DNA from: Janthinobacterium sp. LM6
Lineage (GTDB): Bacteria > Pseudomonadota > Gammaproteobacteria > Burkholderiales > Burkholderiaceae_D
Assembly: GCF_002002885.1 (NCBI RefSeq)
Contig: NZ_CP019510.1
Coordinates: forward strand, 5,642,001 to 5,706,000
DNA: 64,000 nt
Reading direction: 5' to 3'
In this document: positions 1-5,915 of the stretch, piece after piece
How the letters are laid out: each line of letters opens with the position of its first letter
Position numbering within the stretch: position 1 is the stretch's first letter
Notes under the pieces: model-generated
What the model was told of the DNA's origin: nothing
Database searches by the model: none
Seen by the model: only the letters and a program-made list of their open reading frames with translations
Made by a program: the position numbers and the translations under genes

Positions 1-2136
1 CAGCGTTTTTTCGGCGCTGACGCGGCGAAGGCGGCGCTTGCCGACTAGCAAATGGATCAATTGGATGCACAGCAGGATGACGACGATCAAGACCGTGGCG
101 TAGGCAATCGCCGTGCCGTAGTTGCCGTTCGACACCAGGCCGATGATGTAGGACGTGGCCATGTCGTAATCGGCGCTGACGAGGAAGACGACGGCCGAGA
201 TCGACGTGATCGAGCGCACGAAGCCATACACGAGGGCCGAGGCGATGGCCGGGCGCAGCAGCGGCAGGATGACCTTGCGCATGGTGGTCCAGCTGCTGGC
301 GCCCAGGGTGATCGATGCCTCATCCAGGCTGCCGTCGAGCTGGCGCATGGCGGCGATGCCCGTGCGTAAGCCCATCGGCATGTTGCGGAAGACAAAGCAC
401 AGGATCAGAATCGTCGCCGTGCCCGTCAACTCGATGGGCGCCGAGTTGAACGCCAGGATGTAGCTGATGCCGATGACGGTGCCGGGAATGGCAAAGCTGA
501 GCATGGTGCCGAACTCGAACGCGCTCTTCAGGGCGAATTGCTGGCGCACCAGCAGCCAGGCCGACAGGATGCCGACAAAGGCCGTCAAGGGCGCGGCGAT
601 GGCCGAGATCGTCAGCGTGGTGAACAGCGACGGCCAGGCCTGGCCCGTCCATTGCCAGCCGGAAGCGCCCGCCGTGATGCCAAAGGCGTCGATGTAATGG
701 CGCAAGGTGAAGGCGTTGTCCTGGCCCCAGTTATTCACGAAGCCGCCCGCCACCACGGTGCCGTAGACCAGGGCCGTGAAGGCGAACCATGGCAGGGCGA
801 TGGTCCACAAGGTGGTTTTCAGGCGCGGGTTGAGCGAGGCGTGGCCGCCGTGGTCGGCCTTGCCCGTCACCGTCACATACGATTTCTTGCCCAGCCACAG
901 GTTCTGGATGAAGAAGGCACCCACGGCAAACGTCAGCAGCACGATGGCCAAAGTCGCCGCGCGGCCCTGATCGTTCGAGGCGCCCACCACGGAAAAGAAG
1001 ATTTCCGTCGACAGCACGTGGAAGTTGCCGCCCAGCACCATCGGGTTGCCGAAGTCGGCCATGCTTTCGATAAAGCACAGCAAAAAGGCATTGGCGATGC
1101 CGGGACGCATCAAGGGCAGCGACACCTTGACGAAGGTTTGCCAGCTGCTGGCGCCCAGGGTGCCCGACGCTTCTTCCAGCGACGGGCTGACGCCTTCCAC
1201 CACACCAATCAATGTCATGAAGGCAATCGGAGCAAAGGCCAGCATCTGCGACAGCCACACGCCCGTCATGCCGTACAGCCAGCGGCTCTGCTCGATACCA
1301 AACAGGTCGCCGACGAGGCCCGTGATGGCGCCGTTGCGGCCGAACAGCAGGATCAGGGCCAGGCCCAGCACGAAGGGCGGCGTGACGATCGGCAAGATGG
1401 TGATGGCGCGCATCGGACGTACCCAGCGGCCATTGGTGCGCGTCACCAAGAGGGCGAACACGAGACCGAGGAAGGTGGCCGACACGCCCGTCAGCAGGGC
1501 CAGCGCCAGGGTATTCCAGGCCACGCCGCAGCGGCCGGGACCGGACACGCAATTGAGGCTCCAGATGCCGGGATCCGCCATGCGGCGCGCCAGGGCGGCG
1601 GCGCCCGTGCCGCCATCGTCCATCGGCTGGCCGGCGCTGACGAGGATCAGCGCGACGGGGAACAGCACGAACAGGGAAATCAAGCAAATGATGAGGCCGA
1701 TGGCGCCGGCCACGAAGGCGTCGCCGCGGCACACGCCGCAGGCGGCGGCGCCCGAGGTGAGCAGGAACAGCAGGCACAGCGACAGCAGCAGCGCGCCGAA
1801 ACCGAGACCGGTGCCGGCGGCCAGCGGGCCCCAGCCCAGCCATGCCAGCCACAGCAGGCCCGCGCCGCCGAGGGCGATCTGGCCCAGGCCCAGGGTCTTG
1901 CGGTGGGGATTGGCGGCCACCAGCGCGGCGCTGGCGGCGAGCAGGGCGAAGAACACGCCCAGCGGCCAGGCGCCGAACGACAGCAGGTGCAGCATGGCCG
2001 GTGCGCCGCGGTCACTGAAGAACTGGCCGTCCCGCAACCACTCGCCGGCGAACAATCCCGCTTCCTGCTGCTGCCAGGGCAACAGGCACAACGCTGCCAG
2101 GGCGGCCAGCAGCCAGCCGTAAAATATCTTTTTCAT
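1..2136 (-). CDS. ABC transporter permease, ferric-iron (FbpB/AfuB) type, partial at the left edge
   Basis: Inner-membrane permease of a binding-protein-dependent importer, read leftward; the 3' end lies outside the window. The frame stays open for 712 codons from the ATG at 2136; another in-frame ATG at 2145 is possible. It carries two fused permease domains. The EAA-type cytoplasmic loops read EEASGTLGASSWQTFVKVSLP and DEASITLGASSWTTMRKVILP, and each is followed by a hydrophobic block. Members of the FbpB/AfuB class have this duplicated layout at about 700 residues, so only a short C-terminal tail is probably missing. The binding-protein gene lies 154 bases upstream on the same strand. The ATPase gene would be expected just beyond the left edge. 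Ferric iron is the family default; the true substrate is not proven. Confidence 0.88.
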   Translation of the reverse strand, partial: MKKIFYGWLLAALAALCLLPWQQQEAGLFAGEWLRDGQFFSDRGAPAMLHLLSFGAWPLGVFFALLAASAALVAANPHRKTLGLGQIALGGAGLLWLAWLGWGPLAAGTGLGFGALLLSLCLLFLLTSGAAACGVCRGDAFVAGAIGLIICLISLFVLFPVALILVSAGQPMDDGGTGAAALARRMADPGIWSLNCVSGPGRCGVAWNTLALALLTGVSATFLGLVFALLVTRTNGRWVRPMRAITILPIVTPPFVLGLALILLFGRNGAITGLVGDLFGIEQSRWLYGMTGVWLSQMLAFAPIAFMTLIGVVEGVSPSLEEASGTLGASSWQTFVKVSLPLMRPGIANAFLLCFIESMADFGNPMVLGGNFHVLSTEIFFSVVGASNDQGRAATLAIVLLTFAVGAFFIQNLWLGKKSYVTVTGKADHGGHASLNPRLKTTLWTIALPWFAFTALVYGTVVAGGFVNNWGQDNAFTLRHYIDAFGITAGASGWQWTGQAWPSLFTTLTISAIAAPLTAFVGILSAWLLVRQQFALKSAFEFGTMLSFAIPGTVIGISYILAFNSAPIELTGTATILILCFVFRNMPMGLRTGIAAMRQLDGSLDEASITLGASSWTTMRKVILPLLRPAIASALVYGFVRSITSISAVVFLVSADYDMATSYIIGLVSNGNYGTAIAYATVLIVVILLCIQLIHLLVGKRRLRRVSAEKTL

Positions 2137-2290
2137 GAGTTTCATCCAACTATGAACGTCTGAAATTCTGTTGCGCGGTGCGCTCTGTTTCCCAGACGTT
2201 TTGAACAATTGATATAGGTTTAACGCCTGCCAAAACTGTAGCGAGCGGCAGTGAGTTGCGGCCGAGACGCGCAGTAAGTTTTGACGCGCG

Positions 2291-3310
2291 TTAATTGCCG
2301 GCAGAATAAATCTGCGTGGTCCAGCGTTGTAATAAGCGCTTGCGCGTGTCCGAGGCGCCATACTTGGCGAAGTCGTAGTTGATGGTCTTGATGTTTTCCA
2401 GGCGCGGCGAGGCGGCGGGAATGGTGGCGGCCGTATTCGACGGGATCTGGAACGCCAGCGCTTTCACGGCTTCGCTCTGCACGTCCGGACGCAGGGCGAA
2501 TTCATAGAATTTCTTTGCCTGCTCCATGTTTTTCGCGCCCTTGACGATGCTCATCGAGCCGATCTCGTAGCCCGTGCCTTCGCAGGGCGGCAAGACTTTC
2601 ACGGGAAAGCCGGCCACGGTCAGTTTCATCAGGTCGTGCATGAAACCGATGGCCACGCCCGCTTCGCCGCGGCCCACGTCCTCGCCGGGCGCCACGCCCG
2701 CGTTCGGATACTTGCTGACGTTCTGCCCCATTTTCGCCAGGAAATCGAAGGCGTCCTCTTCTCCCATCAACTGCACCACGGTGGCCAGCGCGTTGTAGGC
2801 GGCGCCCGAGGAGTTCGGGTTGGCCATCTCGATCTCGCCCTTGTAGGCGGGCTTGACGAGGTCTTTCCAGCATTGGGGCGGCGGCAGGTTTTTCTTCTTC
2901 AGCACGTTTTCGTTGTAGGCCAGGCCCAGGATGCCGATATAGATGCCGACGGTGCGGTATTTGGCCGTCTCGGCCTGCTTGAGCGCCCACGGCTGCAGCT
3001 TGGGCAGGGTGGGCGACTTGTATTCTTCCGTATAGCCTTCGGCGGCGGCTTGCAGATGCGGGTCGCCCGTGCCGCCCCACCAGATGTCCGATTTCGGGTT
3101 CGACGCTTCGGCGCGGATCTTCGCATACGCCTCGCCGGCGCTCTTCCTGATCATCGATACCTTGATCTTGCTTTCCGCCTCGAAGCGGTTCTTCATCAGC
3201 TGGCACCACTCCATGTCGGCCGAACACAGCACGGACAGGCGTTCCTCGGCGGCCATGGCCGTCATCGGCAGGGCCAGGCTTATAGCAATCGCAACATTGC
3301 GCATCTTCAT
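2291..3310 (-). CDS. ABC transporter substrate-binding protein, AfuA/FbpA type (COG1840)
   Basis: Periplasmic binding protein, 339 residues, that would feed the permease downstream. It begins MKMRNVAIAIS with a Sec signal peptide ending near AMA-AEE. The mature part contains the CSADMEWCQLM segment seen in one branch of COG1840 iron-type binding proteins, then IWWGGTGDP and a C-terminal lobe typical of class D binding proteins. The start was set at 3310 because GGAG stands 7 bases upstream; the frame is open 15 codons further. The two cysteines near the N-terminus (VLCSADMEWC) could form a disulfide. The ligand may be ferric iron, another chelated metal, or a phosphonate-like compound; sequence alone does not decide. 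A palindrome upstream at 3412 is a candidate operator. Confidence 0.85.
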   Translation of the reverse strand: MKMRNVAIAISLALPMTAMAAEERLSVLCSADMEWCQLMKNRFEAESKIKVSMIRKSAGEAYAKIRAEASNPKSDIWWGGTGDPHLQAAAEGYTEEYKSPTLPKLQPWALKQAETAKYRTVGIYIGILGLAYNENVLKKKNLPPPQCWKDLVKPAYKGEIEMANPNSSGAAYNALATVVQLMGEEDAFDFLAKMGQNVSKYPNAGVAPGEDVGRGEAGVAIGFMHDLMKLTVAGFPVKVLPPCEGTGYEIGSMSIVKGAKNMEQAKKFYEFALRPDVQSEAVKALAFQIPSNTAATIPAASPRLENIKTINYDFAKYGASDTRKRLLQRWTTQIYSAGN

Positions 3311-3411
3311 CGTCTCACTCCAAGTTTGTTGTCGTTGTGGTACTTCAGACCGCACCGCTATCTTGCGGTGTCACTGTCCCGGGATGTGCTTTTAAAGGCC
3401 TTGCACTGCAT

Positions 3412-3425
3412 TGCACACGTGTGCA
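3412..3425. promoter_or_regulatory. 14-bp perfect palindrome upstream of the ABC importer genes
   Basis: TGCACACGTGTGCA is a perfect dyad about 100 bases upstream of the binding-protein start. A position in the promoter region of the leftward operon and perfect symmetry suggest a repressor or activator site. No regulator gene lies next to it, so its partner is unknown. Confidence 0.4.
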
Positions 3426-3496
3426 CACCTTACCACCAGCCGATTTTGACTGTCAACAAGAATCTCGGCAGGCGTGCCGCGTGGTGTTTTACCGAC

Positions 3497-3530
3497 AAAA
3501 AAAGCCGCCAGCGTTGCAGCTGGCGGCTTT
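3497..3530 (-). terminator. Intrinsic terminator of the MFS gene
   Basis: A perfect 12-bp stem (AAAGCCGCCAGC paired with GCTGGCGGCTTT, 6-base loop) is followed on the minus strand by a run of seven T (A run at 3497-3503). It lies 26 bases past the stop of the MFS transporter gene that ends at 3556. Confidence 0.88.
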
Positions 3531-3555
3531 CGGGACCGGTGGGGTCAGAGGGGTG

Positions 3556-4806
3556 TTACTGCCAGGCTTCCTTGCCCGCGCGTGGCTTGCCCACCATCAA
3601 CAGCGCGCCCAGAGTCAGCACGGCTGCCAGCGACAGGTAATAGCCGACGTATTGCAAGCCGTAGTTGGTGGCCAGCCAGGTGGCGATGTACGGCGCCAGC
3701 GAGGCGCCCAGGATGCCGGCCAGGTTGAACGTCAGCGAGGCGCCCGTGTAGCGCACTTCGGGCGGGAACAGTTCGGACAACATCGTGCCCAGCGGACCGT
3801 AGGTCATGCCCATCAGGCCCAGGCCGACAGCCATGAAGACCGTCACTTCCCACGTCACGCCCGAGCCGAACATGGGAGCGAGCACCAGGCCGAAGATGGC
3901 GATGGCGACGGAGACCCAGATCAGGGTGGCGCGGCGGCCGCGGCGGTCGGCCAGCACGGCCGAGAATGGAATCGTCAGGGCGAAGAACAGCACGGCAAAC
4001 AGCTGCACGACGAGGAATTCCTTGCGCGTGAAGCCCAGCTTGGTCGTACCCCAGCTCAGCGCGAACACCGTCATCAGGTAGAACAGCACGAAGGTGGCCA
4101 GGGCGATGATGGTGCCCAGGAACAACATGCGGCCATGCTGGCGGAACACGGTGGCCACGGGCAGCTTGACGACTTCGTTCTTGTCGATGACTTTCTGGAA
4201 GTCCGGCGTTTCCGTGATCTTCAGACGCACGTACAGGCCGACGATGACCAGCAGCGCGCTGGCCAGGAACGGGATGCGCCAGCCGTAGCTGAAGAATTGC
4301 TCATCGGTCATGGTTTCGCTCAGCAGCAGGAAGATGCCGCCCGACAGGAAGAAGCCGATCGGCGCGCCCAGCTGCGGGAACATGCCGTACCAGGCGCGCT
4401 TGCCCGGTGGCGCATTTTCCGTGGCCAGCAGCACCGCGCCGCCCCACTCGCCGCCCAGGCCCAGGCCCTGGCCGAAACGGCACAGCGCCAGCAGCAGCGG
4501 CGCCAAGGTGCCGATGGCGGCATACGTCGGCAGCAAGCCGATGATGACGGTGGAGATACCCATGGTCAGCAAAGCGGCCACGAGGGTGGCCTTGCGGCCG
4601 ATGCGGTCGCCGAAATGGCCGAACACGGCAGAACCGATGGGACGGGCAAAAAAGGCGATGGCGAACGTGGCCAGCGACTGCAGCACGGCGGCCGACGGGT
4701 CGCCGGCGGGGAAGAACAGTTTCGGGAACACCAGCACGGCGGCGGTGGCGTAGATATAAAAGTCAAAGAACTCGATGGTGGTGCCGATCAGGCTGGCGAA
4801 CAGCAC
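3556..4806 (-). CDS. MFS transporter, metabolite:H+ symporter (MHS/ShiA-ProP) family; start disrupted
   Basis: Inner-membrane proton symporter with about 12 helices. Family marks are EFFDFYIYATAAVLVFPKLF at the N-terminus, GHFGDRIGRK in the loop between helices 2 and 3, and RFGQGLGLGGEWGGA. The substrate is unknown; relatives take up organic acids, shikimate or betaines. The only start codon in this frame is a GTG at 4806, inside what looks like a longer N-terminus. A much better start, ATG at 4841 with AAGGAG upstream, is one base out of frame because of a run of seven C just after it. Eight C would give MSTPPKKNSPGTVLFASLIG joined to the rest, a normal N-terminus of 428 residues. The gene is therefore either phase-variable, weakly expressed from GTG, or affected by a sequencing slip. 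Confidence 0.85.
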   Translation of the reverse strand: MLFASLIGTTIEFFDFYIYATAAVLVFPKLFFPAGDPSAAVLQSLATFAIAFFARPIGSAVFGHFGDRIGRKATLVAALLTMGISTVIIGLLPTYAAIGTLAPLLLALCRFGQGLGLGGEWGGAVLLATENAPPGKRAWYGMFPQLGAPIGFFLSGGIFLLLSETMTDEQFFSYGWRIPFLASALLVIVGLYVRLKITETPDFQKVIDKNEVVKLPVATVFRQHGRMLFLGTIIALATFVLFYLMTVFALSWGTTKLGFTRKEFLVVQLFAVLFFALTIPFSAVLADRRGRRATLIWVSVAIAIFGLVLAPMFGSGVTWEVTVFMAVGLGLMGMTYGPLGTMLSELFPPEVRYTGASLTFNLAGILGASLAPYIATWLATNYGLQYVGYYLSLAAVLTLGALLMVGKPRAGKEAWQ

Positions 4807-4827
4807 CGTGCCGGGGGAATTTTTCTT

Positions 4828-4834
4828 GGGGGGG
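4828..4834. repeat. Homopolymer tract (7 G on plus strand) at the start of the MFS gene
   Basis: Seven consecutive G (C on the coding strand) lie two codons after the ATG at 4841. The tract length sets whether that ATG is in frame with the transporter: 7 is out of frame, 8 is in frame. This is the arrangement expected of a slipped-strand switch, and it is also a common site of base-calling error. Confidence 0.8.
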
Positions 4835-4933
4835 TGCTCATTTACTGCGCTCCTTGGGGAGGGTGTCTAAAGGCCATTCTCTGGATGTTTTTTCAGGCAG
4901 CAGCACAGCACGTTGTATAAAGTAACCGCCAGT

Positions 4934-5065
4934 AAATTATTGTTATTTCTGACTTCCATAAGCGGCGTGCTGCTGCGTTGGCAGCCGCTCGCAGTGCTCG
5001 CACTGCGTCGCGACAGCCGCCTTGCATCACATCCGCTTCTGTTCATCATAAATTTACAATAATTT
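4934..5065. repeat. 132-bp segment bounded by 10-bp inverted repeats
   Basis: AAATTATTGT at 4934-4943 is the exact reverse complement of ACAATAATTT at 5056-5065. Between them sits a hairpin GCAGTGC-TC-GCACTGC at 4991-5006. The layout resembles a small non-autonomous element or a structured RNA, but no target duplication was seen. Confidence 0.35.
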
Positions 5066-5218
5066 CCCGACGATTACTTAGGCGCATTGTTCACCTATCA
5101 TAGCTGTGCGCGGACGTATTTGCTGTGAATTTGCTACTAAATTCGCAAACAAATTCCACGCAGCAACACGCCGTTGTTAACGGCAGGCAACGGTGAACAA
5201 ACGCGCGCTATCGCGCTG

Positions 5219-5234
5219 TGATCAGTGCTGATCA
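5219..5234. promoter_or_regulatory. Perfect dyad TGATCAG-TG-CTGATCA
   Basis: A 7-bp inverted repeat with a 2-base centre lies in the non-coding stretch upstream of the MFS gene, far (about 380 bases) from its start. It may be an operator or the foot of an RNA hairpin; no function can be assigned. Confidence 0.3.
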
Positions 5235-5537
5235 GAGAAACAACGGTCGTGCGCCATCCGGTTACCCGGGGCACGGCAGGAAAGGCGTCAGGGGATGGGC
5301 GACGTGTATCAGGCCCGGCGTATCGCCAGGCATTCCGTACCAGACCCGCGCGTCGGCATCGCGGCATCGGTCATTTGTGGTGAATCCTTGCCTGCGGCCC
5401 CTCCGGGTGGAGCGGGCCGGCGATCATCGCGCTGCATCACTAAGGATGCGGTTGATCTTGCTGTAAGCGGCTTATGATACGCGCAGTGGTGCGGTGCGGC
5501 AAGATAGTTTGAAATGCAAACCCCAACAGCAAGGACT

Positions 5538-5564
5538 GGGGTCGGACCCTGAGGGTCCGACCCC
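5538..5564. repeat. REP-like palindrome, copy 1
   Basis: Perfect 13-bp arms GGGGTCGGACCCT / AGGGTCCGACCCC separated by one base, in CTGGGG...CCCCGG flanks shared with the copies at 31438 and 43262. It lies 28 bases past the stop of the thioredoxin-like gene, where the hairpin could end transcription or protect the mRNA 3' end. Confidence 0.85.
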
Positions 5565-5591
5565 GGCATCTGCCGTTGGGCTTAAAACGAC

Positions 5592-5915
5592 CTACGCATC
5601 AATCAGGGCGAACGCCCTGGCGATCTCCGCGCTGTCGAGCGGGCGCACGAGGCGCGCCACTTCCTGGCCATCCTTGAGGAAAATCAAGGTCGGCCACAGT
5701 TTCACCCGGAAGTAGCGTCCCAGGGCGCGGCCGGGGCCGTCTTCCACGCGCAGGTGCGGCACCTCGGGGTGCTGCGCAAAGGCAGCGGCCAGCGGCGCCT
5801 GGGTGGCGCGGCAGTGGCCGCACCAGCCCGTGCCGAATTCCAGCAGGGCCGGGCCCGCCAGCGCGTCGATCCCGGCACGCGTGGGTTGCGCCACAGCATA
5901 CGTGTCATTCATCAT
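5592..5915 (-). CDS. Thioredoxin-family protein with CGHC active site
   Basis: Small cytoplasmic redox protein, 107 residues from the ATG at 5915. The motif GTGWCGHCRATQAPLA places the two cysteines at 32 and 35, the usual distance from the start of a thioredoxin. The cis-proline part reads FRVKLWPTLIFLKDGQEVARLVRP. CGHC rather than CGPC is the protein disulfide isomerase type pair and tends to be more oxidising, so reductase activity should not be assumed. No signal peptide is visible. AAGGAGAG just upstream of 5915 fixes the start; an ATG six codons earlier (5933) would abut the preceding FAH gene. The short gap to that gene suggests co-transcription. Confidence 0.85.
   Translation of the reverse strand: MMNDTYAVAQPTRAGIDALAGPALLEFGTGWCGHCRATQAPLAAAFAQHPEVPHLRVEDGPGRALGRYFRVKLWPTLIFLKDGQEVARLVRPLDSAEIARAFALIDA

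Follow-up and report, generated by a model that had tools for sequence, protein, structure and literature searches.

The DNA analysed here, referred to as the window, is a 64-kb stretch of the Janthinobacterium sp. LM6 genome (G000; 6.29 Mb, assembled as one contig and 100% complete). On its minus strand, at 3556..4806, lies the open frame of a predicted metabolite:H+ symporter. The protein belongs to the metabolite:H+ symporter (MHS) family of the major facilitator superfamily, matching the full length of model TIGR00883 (positions 1-400 of 400) above the curated cut-off (453.3 bits vs 443.45), and PF07690 and PF00083 also match; it differs from the named-substrate equivalogs (shikimate transporter, ProP) in scoring below their curated cut-offs. 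The closest solved structure by sequence is a phosphate transporter, related only distantly, and the top named protein matches are from Janthinobacterium UMAB-56 (99% identity) and J. lividum PAMC 25724 (98% identity). No plasmid record matched the locus by megablast, and an Rfam search over positions 4700-5600 gave nothing credible, the two matches obtained being far under the gathering score.

Upstream of this frame, the minus strand carries an ATG at 4839..4841 (CAT on the plus strand), with the Shine-Dalgarno sequence AAGGAG (4850..4855; CTCCTT on the plus strand) standing 8 nt 5' of it. A run of seven C (4828..4834; G7 on the plus strand), the sole C/G run of at least seven within the window, occupies codons 3-5 after the ATG, and at this position its length decides the frame of the symporter. 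As assembled, the frame from the ATG reads MSTPPRKIPPARCCSPA and ends with TGA after 17 codons (4788..4841, minus strand). In the symporter frame there is no ATG, GTG or TTG from the upstream stop (TAG, 4869-4867) down to a GTG at 4804..4806 (minus strand), from which 416 codons are open. This GTG equals codon 13 of the 428-codon relatives and is probably near the beginning of the first membrane helix. An earlier note on this DNA had named the ATG with AAGGAG ahead of it, the seven-base C run and the GTG as the only in-frame start left, all of which direct reading of the sequence bore out.

The two starts differ in their predicted ribosome binding. The Shine-Dalgarno duplex of the ATG was calculated at -7.7 kcal/mol, a strength reached or exceeded by 6.3% of 2000 random sites, and that of the GTG at -1.7 kcal/mol, reached or exceeded by 80.1% of 2000 random sites. 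These values bear on the possibility that the symporter is still usefully made, from the GTG or by ribosomal or transcriptional slippage, so that the change in the tract is nearly silent. Over the 120 relatives listed from a protein database search, the N-terminal tail differs in both length and sequence, and its loss may not harm the protein; in addition, C_CCC_CCA would, reasoning from the sequence, permit re-pairing after a -1 shift. However, the GTG has no real Shine-Dalgarno sequence, conservation does not mark it as a potential start (L116, one of the relatives, reads GTA in its place), and the strong ATG would compete with it. We therefore regard a nearly silent change as very improbable.

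To place the frame break among relatives, 40 genomes of the genus, one per species and the window's genome included, were searched by DNA. An orthologue of the symporter was present in 36 of them, G000 counted; G010, G022, G028 and G035 gave weaker DNA matches only, which we read as paralogues. The frame was open from the matching ATG in 35 of the 36 orthologues, the sole exception being G000. Because all 35 others have an in-frame ATG at the matching position (the same alignment column in the rows compared column by column), the ATG at 4841 is more than a chance start. The proposal that an eight-base run would join this ATG to the symporter thus holds, and the alternative raised alongside it, that relatives all start at the GTG, does not. 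AAGGAG was found in 32 of the 36 upstream stretches. The tract was an uninterrupted C8 in 17 orthologues and the broken C7 in G000; in the remaining 18 it was interrupted or shorter, yet in frame, and a tract of nine C or more was absent from all relatives among the 36 (30 of the 36 were compared column by column in an alignment). The run thus follows from the Thr-Pro-Pro codons, and several lineages have lost it while keeping the frame.

The earlier note had presented the locus as a phase switch or a sequencing slip. Slippage in the run fits the data, whereas the comparison does not support the switch. In a contingency locus, the C tract would slip both ways and turn the symporter on and off in the population. 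Such a locus would explain why the tract immediately follows the start codon and why its length in G000 breaks the frame, and short C tracts can vary: excerpts of published reports describe this for a short homopolymeric C tract of bvgS in Bordetella (PMC1891110) and for a C5/C6 tract of NMB1760 in Neisseria (PMC5084427). However, among the 36 orthologues frame-changing variation was confined to G000 itself (0/35 other species off-frame), no tract exceeds eight, and 18/35 have an interrupted run or one with fewer C, so that an uninterrupted tract kept by selection is not seen, and C7-C8 is short for a tract of this kind. Moreover, mutS (1030.5 bits) and mutL (572.9 bits), both above cut-off, are intact in G000, and the family consists of inner-membrane symporters, not a surface structure. 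A maintained switch is thus unlikely. Because mutS and mutL are intact, no general slippage would be expected in this genome either.

Codon use was examined in the G000 gene set of G000:C1:5440001-5840000. With CCC at 0.327 of Pro codons, about 33 of the 309 Pro-Pro pairs should be CCC-CCC, but 5 were counted, and genes seem to avoid long C runs. As CCC-CCC is depleted and the tract nevertheless persists in 17 of 36 species, its presence is not simply a matter of codon preference. C8 might be a low-rate contingency site of the Janthinobacterium lividum group, a source of recurring off alleles (in G000, and perhaps in the lineage of the database protein P0005 described below) that is retained although CCC-CCC is otherwise depleted; we consider this quite unlikely.

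Over the whole of G000, 33 overlapping matches merged into 16 C runs of at least eight. One of these, a C8 run at L186:1501-1508 (G000:C1:389399-389406), lies in frame at codons 13-15 of a gene of about 405 codons. The two longest runs are both intergenic. A C13 run is located at L187:1501-1513 (G000:C1:501136-501148); no full relative of this region was found in the 39 other genus genomes, the one match being of about 34 bases. A C17 run at L204:1501-1517 (G000:C1:3894387-3894403) lies just 5' of a gene that, from its translation, we take to be antirestriction-like. Two of the 39 other genomes contain a relative of the C17 region: G013 reads C7 at this place, and G019 reads TTCCTCCC. As a candidate for a tract of variable length, the C17 run ranks above that of the symporter.

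Related proteins were collected from 5.8 billion database proteins, 120 of the 7,999 passing matches being listed. P0002 (428 aa, from a contig of 518,957 bp) differs from the G000 protein at one residue over 416 and starts with MSTPPKKNSPG; therefore a close intact relative exists, known from the protein alone. Among the matches listed, three clusters (P0007, P0012 and P0013) start with MSTPKKN, one Pro fewer, which is consistent with in-frame contraction of the tract and lends something to the idea of a contingency locus. The same can be said of P0005 (416 aa, with three further substitutions, from a contig of 1,993 bp). Among these matches, its first residue falls right on the GTG, where gene calling would put the start if the upstream frame were broken; this protein could be a second off copy, and of all the results it alone hints at recurrent slippage. 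P0075 also begins at the GTG position, with V instead of M as its first residue, and for this reason is probably a cut-off gene.

To estimate the age of the lesion, changes were counted on 30 of the 36 coding sequences; L116, L180, L181 and L184 were dropped for their different length, and L182 and L183 as distant. G000 showed five private synonymous changes and no private nonsynonymous change among these 30 rows. The nearest relative by this count, G016, differs from G000 by 42 synonymous and one nonsynonymous changes. In a tree of the 36 orthologues, G000 lies within a 25-row clade that contains all 17 carriers of C8, which makes a terminal event the best reading of C7; the fork of G000 itself has modest support (84/83), and many inner forks of the tree are open. 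With no private nonsynonymous change in G000, any decay must be very recent, and the pattern of changes would indicate a frame break that is either very young or not real. The earlier note was right that the rest of the transporter is intact with no other lesion, 416 codons being open. It took the intact body as the mark of a reversible switch, but a recent mutation or an error accounts for it equally well.

The error in question would be a sequencing or assembly miscall, with the tract of the isolate as long as that of its sisters and the gene intact. False homopolymer deletions are the common error of long-read assemblies, according to an excerpt of PMC12007338 (Kastor). The broken C7 occurs in a single one of the 36 assemblies, the remainder of the gene is under purifying selection, and the close protein P0002 is intact, all of which a miscall would explain. 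We compared the G000 assembly with two collinear genomes, using a 400-kb stretch for each of G001 and G009 and a second one of 400 kb for G001, so that about 800 kb of the 6.29 Mb was covered by the comparison with G001. In the codon-scored gene set, 282 genes of G001 (299,791 bp) were aligned to G000 in the first stretch and 284 (301,451 bp) in the second. Of the rows, 7 and 11, respectively, had no fewer than 12 in-frame and 12 out-of-frame columns. Among these 566 genes, the symporter was the sole case in which a homopolymer slip threw a gene body off frame; the other rows, judged by eye, were compensated pairs, complex changes, gene ends or 5' leaders. In one row of the reverse comparison, at 98586-100800 in the second stretch of G000, C3 stands against C4 in G001, which is either a leader difference or a break in G001. 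The comparison with G009 (272 genes, 8 rows) missed the symporter, presumably because the predicted start lay beyond the break, and the survey is accordingly weak for breaks near a start.

C/G runs were compared over the same two stretches. Nine runs of at least seven were found in G000, of which eight align to G001, and six of these eight show no gap in the run, G001 having no run of at least seven there. The two gapped runs are the symporter tract (seven in G000 vs eight in G001) and an intergenic run (C7 in G000 vs C5 in G001) just past the stop of a frame that, from its translation, we take to be uvrA-like. The G000 assembly does not generally shorten C/G runs. It also carries the C13 and C17 runs mentioned above, with lengths as assembled, from which the true ones may differ. 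Because the assembly is otherwise clean, a one-off real slip, which the earlier note had not set apart from a switch, explains the data at least as well as a technical one. A miscall in this single contig is a serious possibility, and we hold it to be the less probable course of events.

The leader of the symporter in G000 also carries an insertion. An element of about 164 bp at 4920..5083 folds as a single hairpin (-77.3 kcal/mol). Fifteen copies occur in G000, and matches were found in 36 of the 40 genus genomes. Leaders could be aligned for 31 of the 36 orthologues, five being without an anchor; 28 of the 31 lack the element, which is present in G000 and G032 and in degenerate form in G005. 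The elements of G000 and G032 are 98% alike, and the other copies, among those listed, at most 87%. Being short, palindromic, multi-copy and absent at this site in relatives, the element is like a miniature inverted-repeat transposable element (MITE). Comparison of G000 with empty sites hints at a TA target, with ends not fixed to the single base and the left T missing in G032. MITEs with TA targets resemble elements of the IS630/Tc1-mariner type. The element sits between the ribosome site and, upstream of the insertion, a TATGATA box (5096..5102, minus strand) that is conserved in the aligned leaders; the box is a possible -10 element, although a consensus scan did not list it. The element may lower expression and relax selection on the symporter. 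Because G032 has the element together with an intact frame, the insertion and the frame break are separable.

Beyond the leader, the interval between long HSPs at G000:C1:5624561-5647600 (window 1-5600 plus 17 kb past its left edge) measures about 23 kb in G000 vs 3.6 kb in G001. A gene for a 2-aminoethylphosphonate-type binding protein, scoring below the curated cut-off, lies at 2291-3355. From the difference in length, an island with this gene may adjoin the symporter.

The G000 locus combines a broken frame, unique among 36 orthologues, with an intact gene body and a clean surrounding assembly. Our preferred explanation is a recent, one-off slip in the C run that is real in the isolate and leaves the symporter null or near-null, with no maintained switch; we give it an even chance. 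Slippage in the C run of the Thr-Pro-Pro codons just past the start would have cost the gene its frame. Ribosomes loaded at the strong AAGGAG/ATG would then make a 17-residue peptide, and the symporter would be made weakly at best, from the GTG at 4806. With this weak GTG as the sole route to the symporter, the allele would be null or near-null. On this explanation the frame change would exist in the isolate itself, and expression of the symporter would probably be lost.

The comparison of 35 sister species makes the event private to G000. A literature search for Janthinobacterium and phase variation found neither term in any title or abstract. None of the papers searched brought phase variation together with major facilitators, homopolymeric tracts, frameshifts and start codons, or Janthinobacterium together with miniature inverted-repeat elements. 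Were the tract a true switch, an environmental betaproteobacterium would have a contingency locus acting on a metabolite symporter.

Compared with known systems, the locus shares with long-read homopolymer errors a run that is one base short in one assembly only, with the relatives open. It differs from the error-prone assemblies described in an excerpt of PMC12007338, which carry many breaks, whereas G000 has one in 566 genes aligned from G001. With the poly-C/poly-G contingency loci (bvgS of Bordetella, the simple-sequence-repeat genes of Neisseria) it shares a coding C run that sets the frame. According to excerpts of PMC1891110 and PMC5084427, variation in the Bordetella and Neisseria tracts is seen among close strains or inside a culture. 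Unlike those loci, the tract in the window is in frame in all 35 sister species and is not maintained. A one-base homopolymer break in an otherwise perfect gene can thus mimic a switch when a single genome is considered, and caution is required. Recent strain-specific pseudogenes have one lesion, an intact body and intact copies in relatives, and from these the G000 locus departs in nothing tested.
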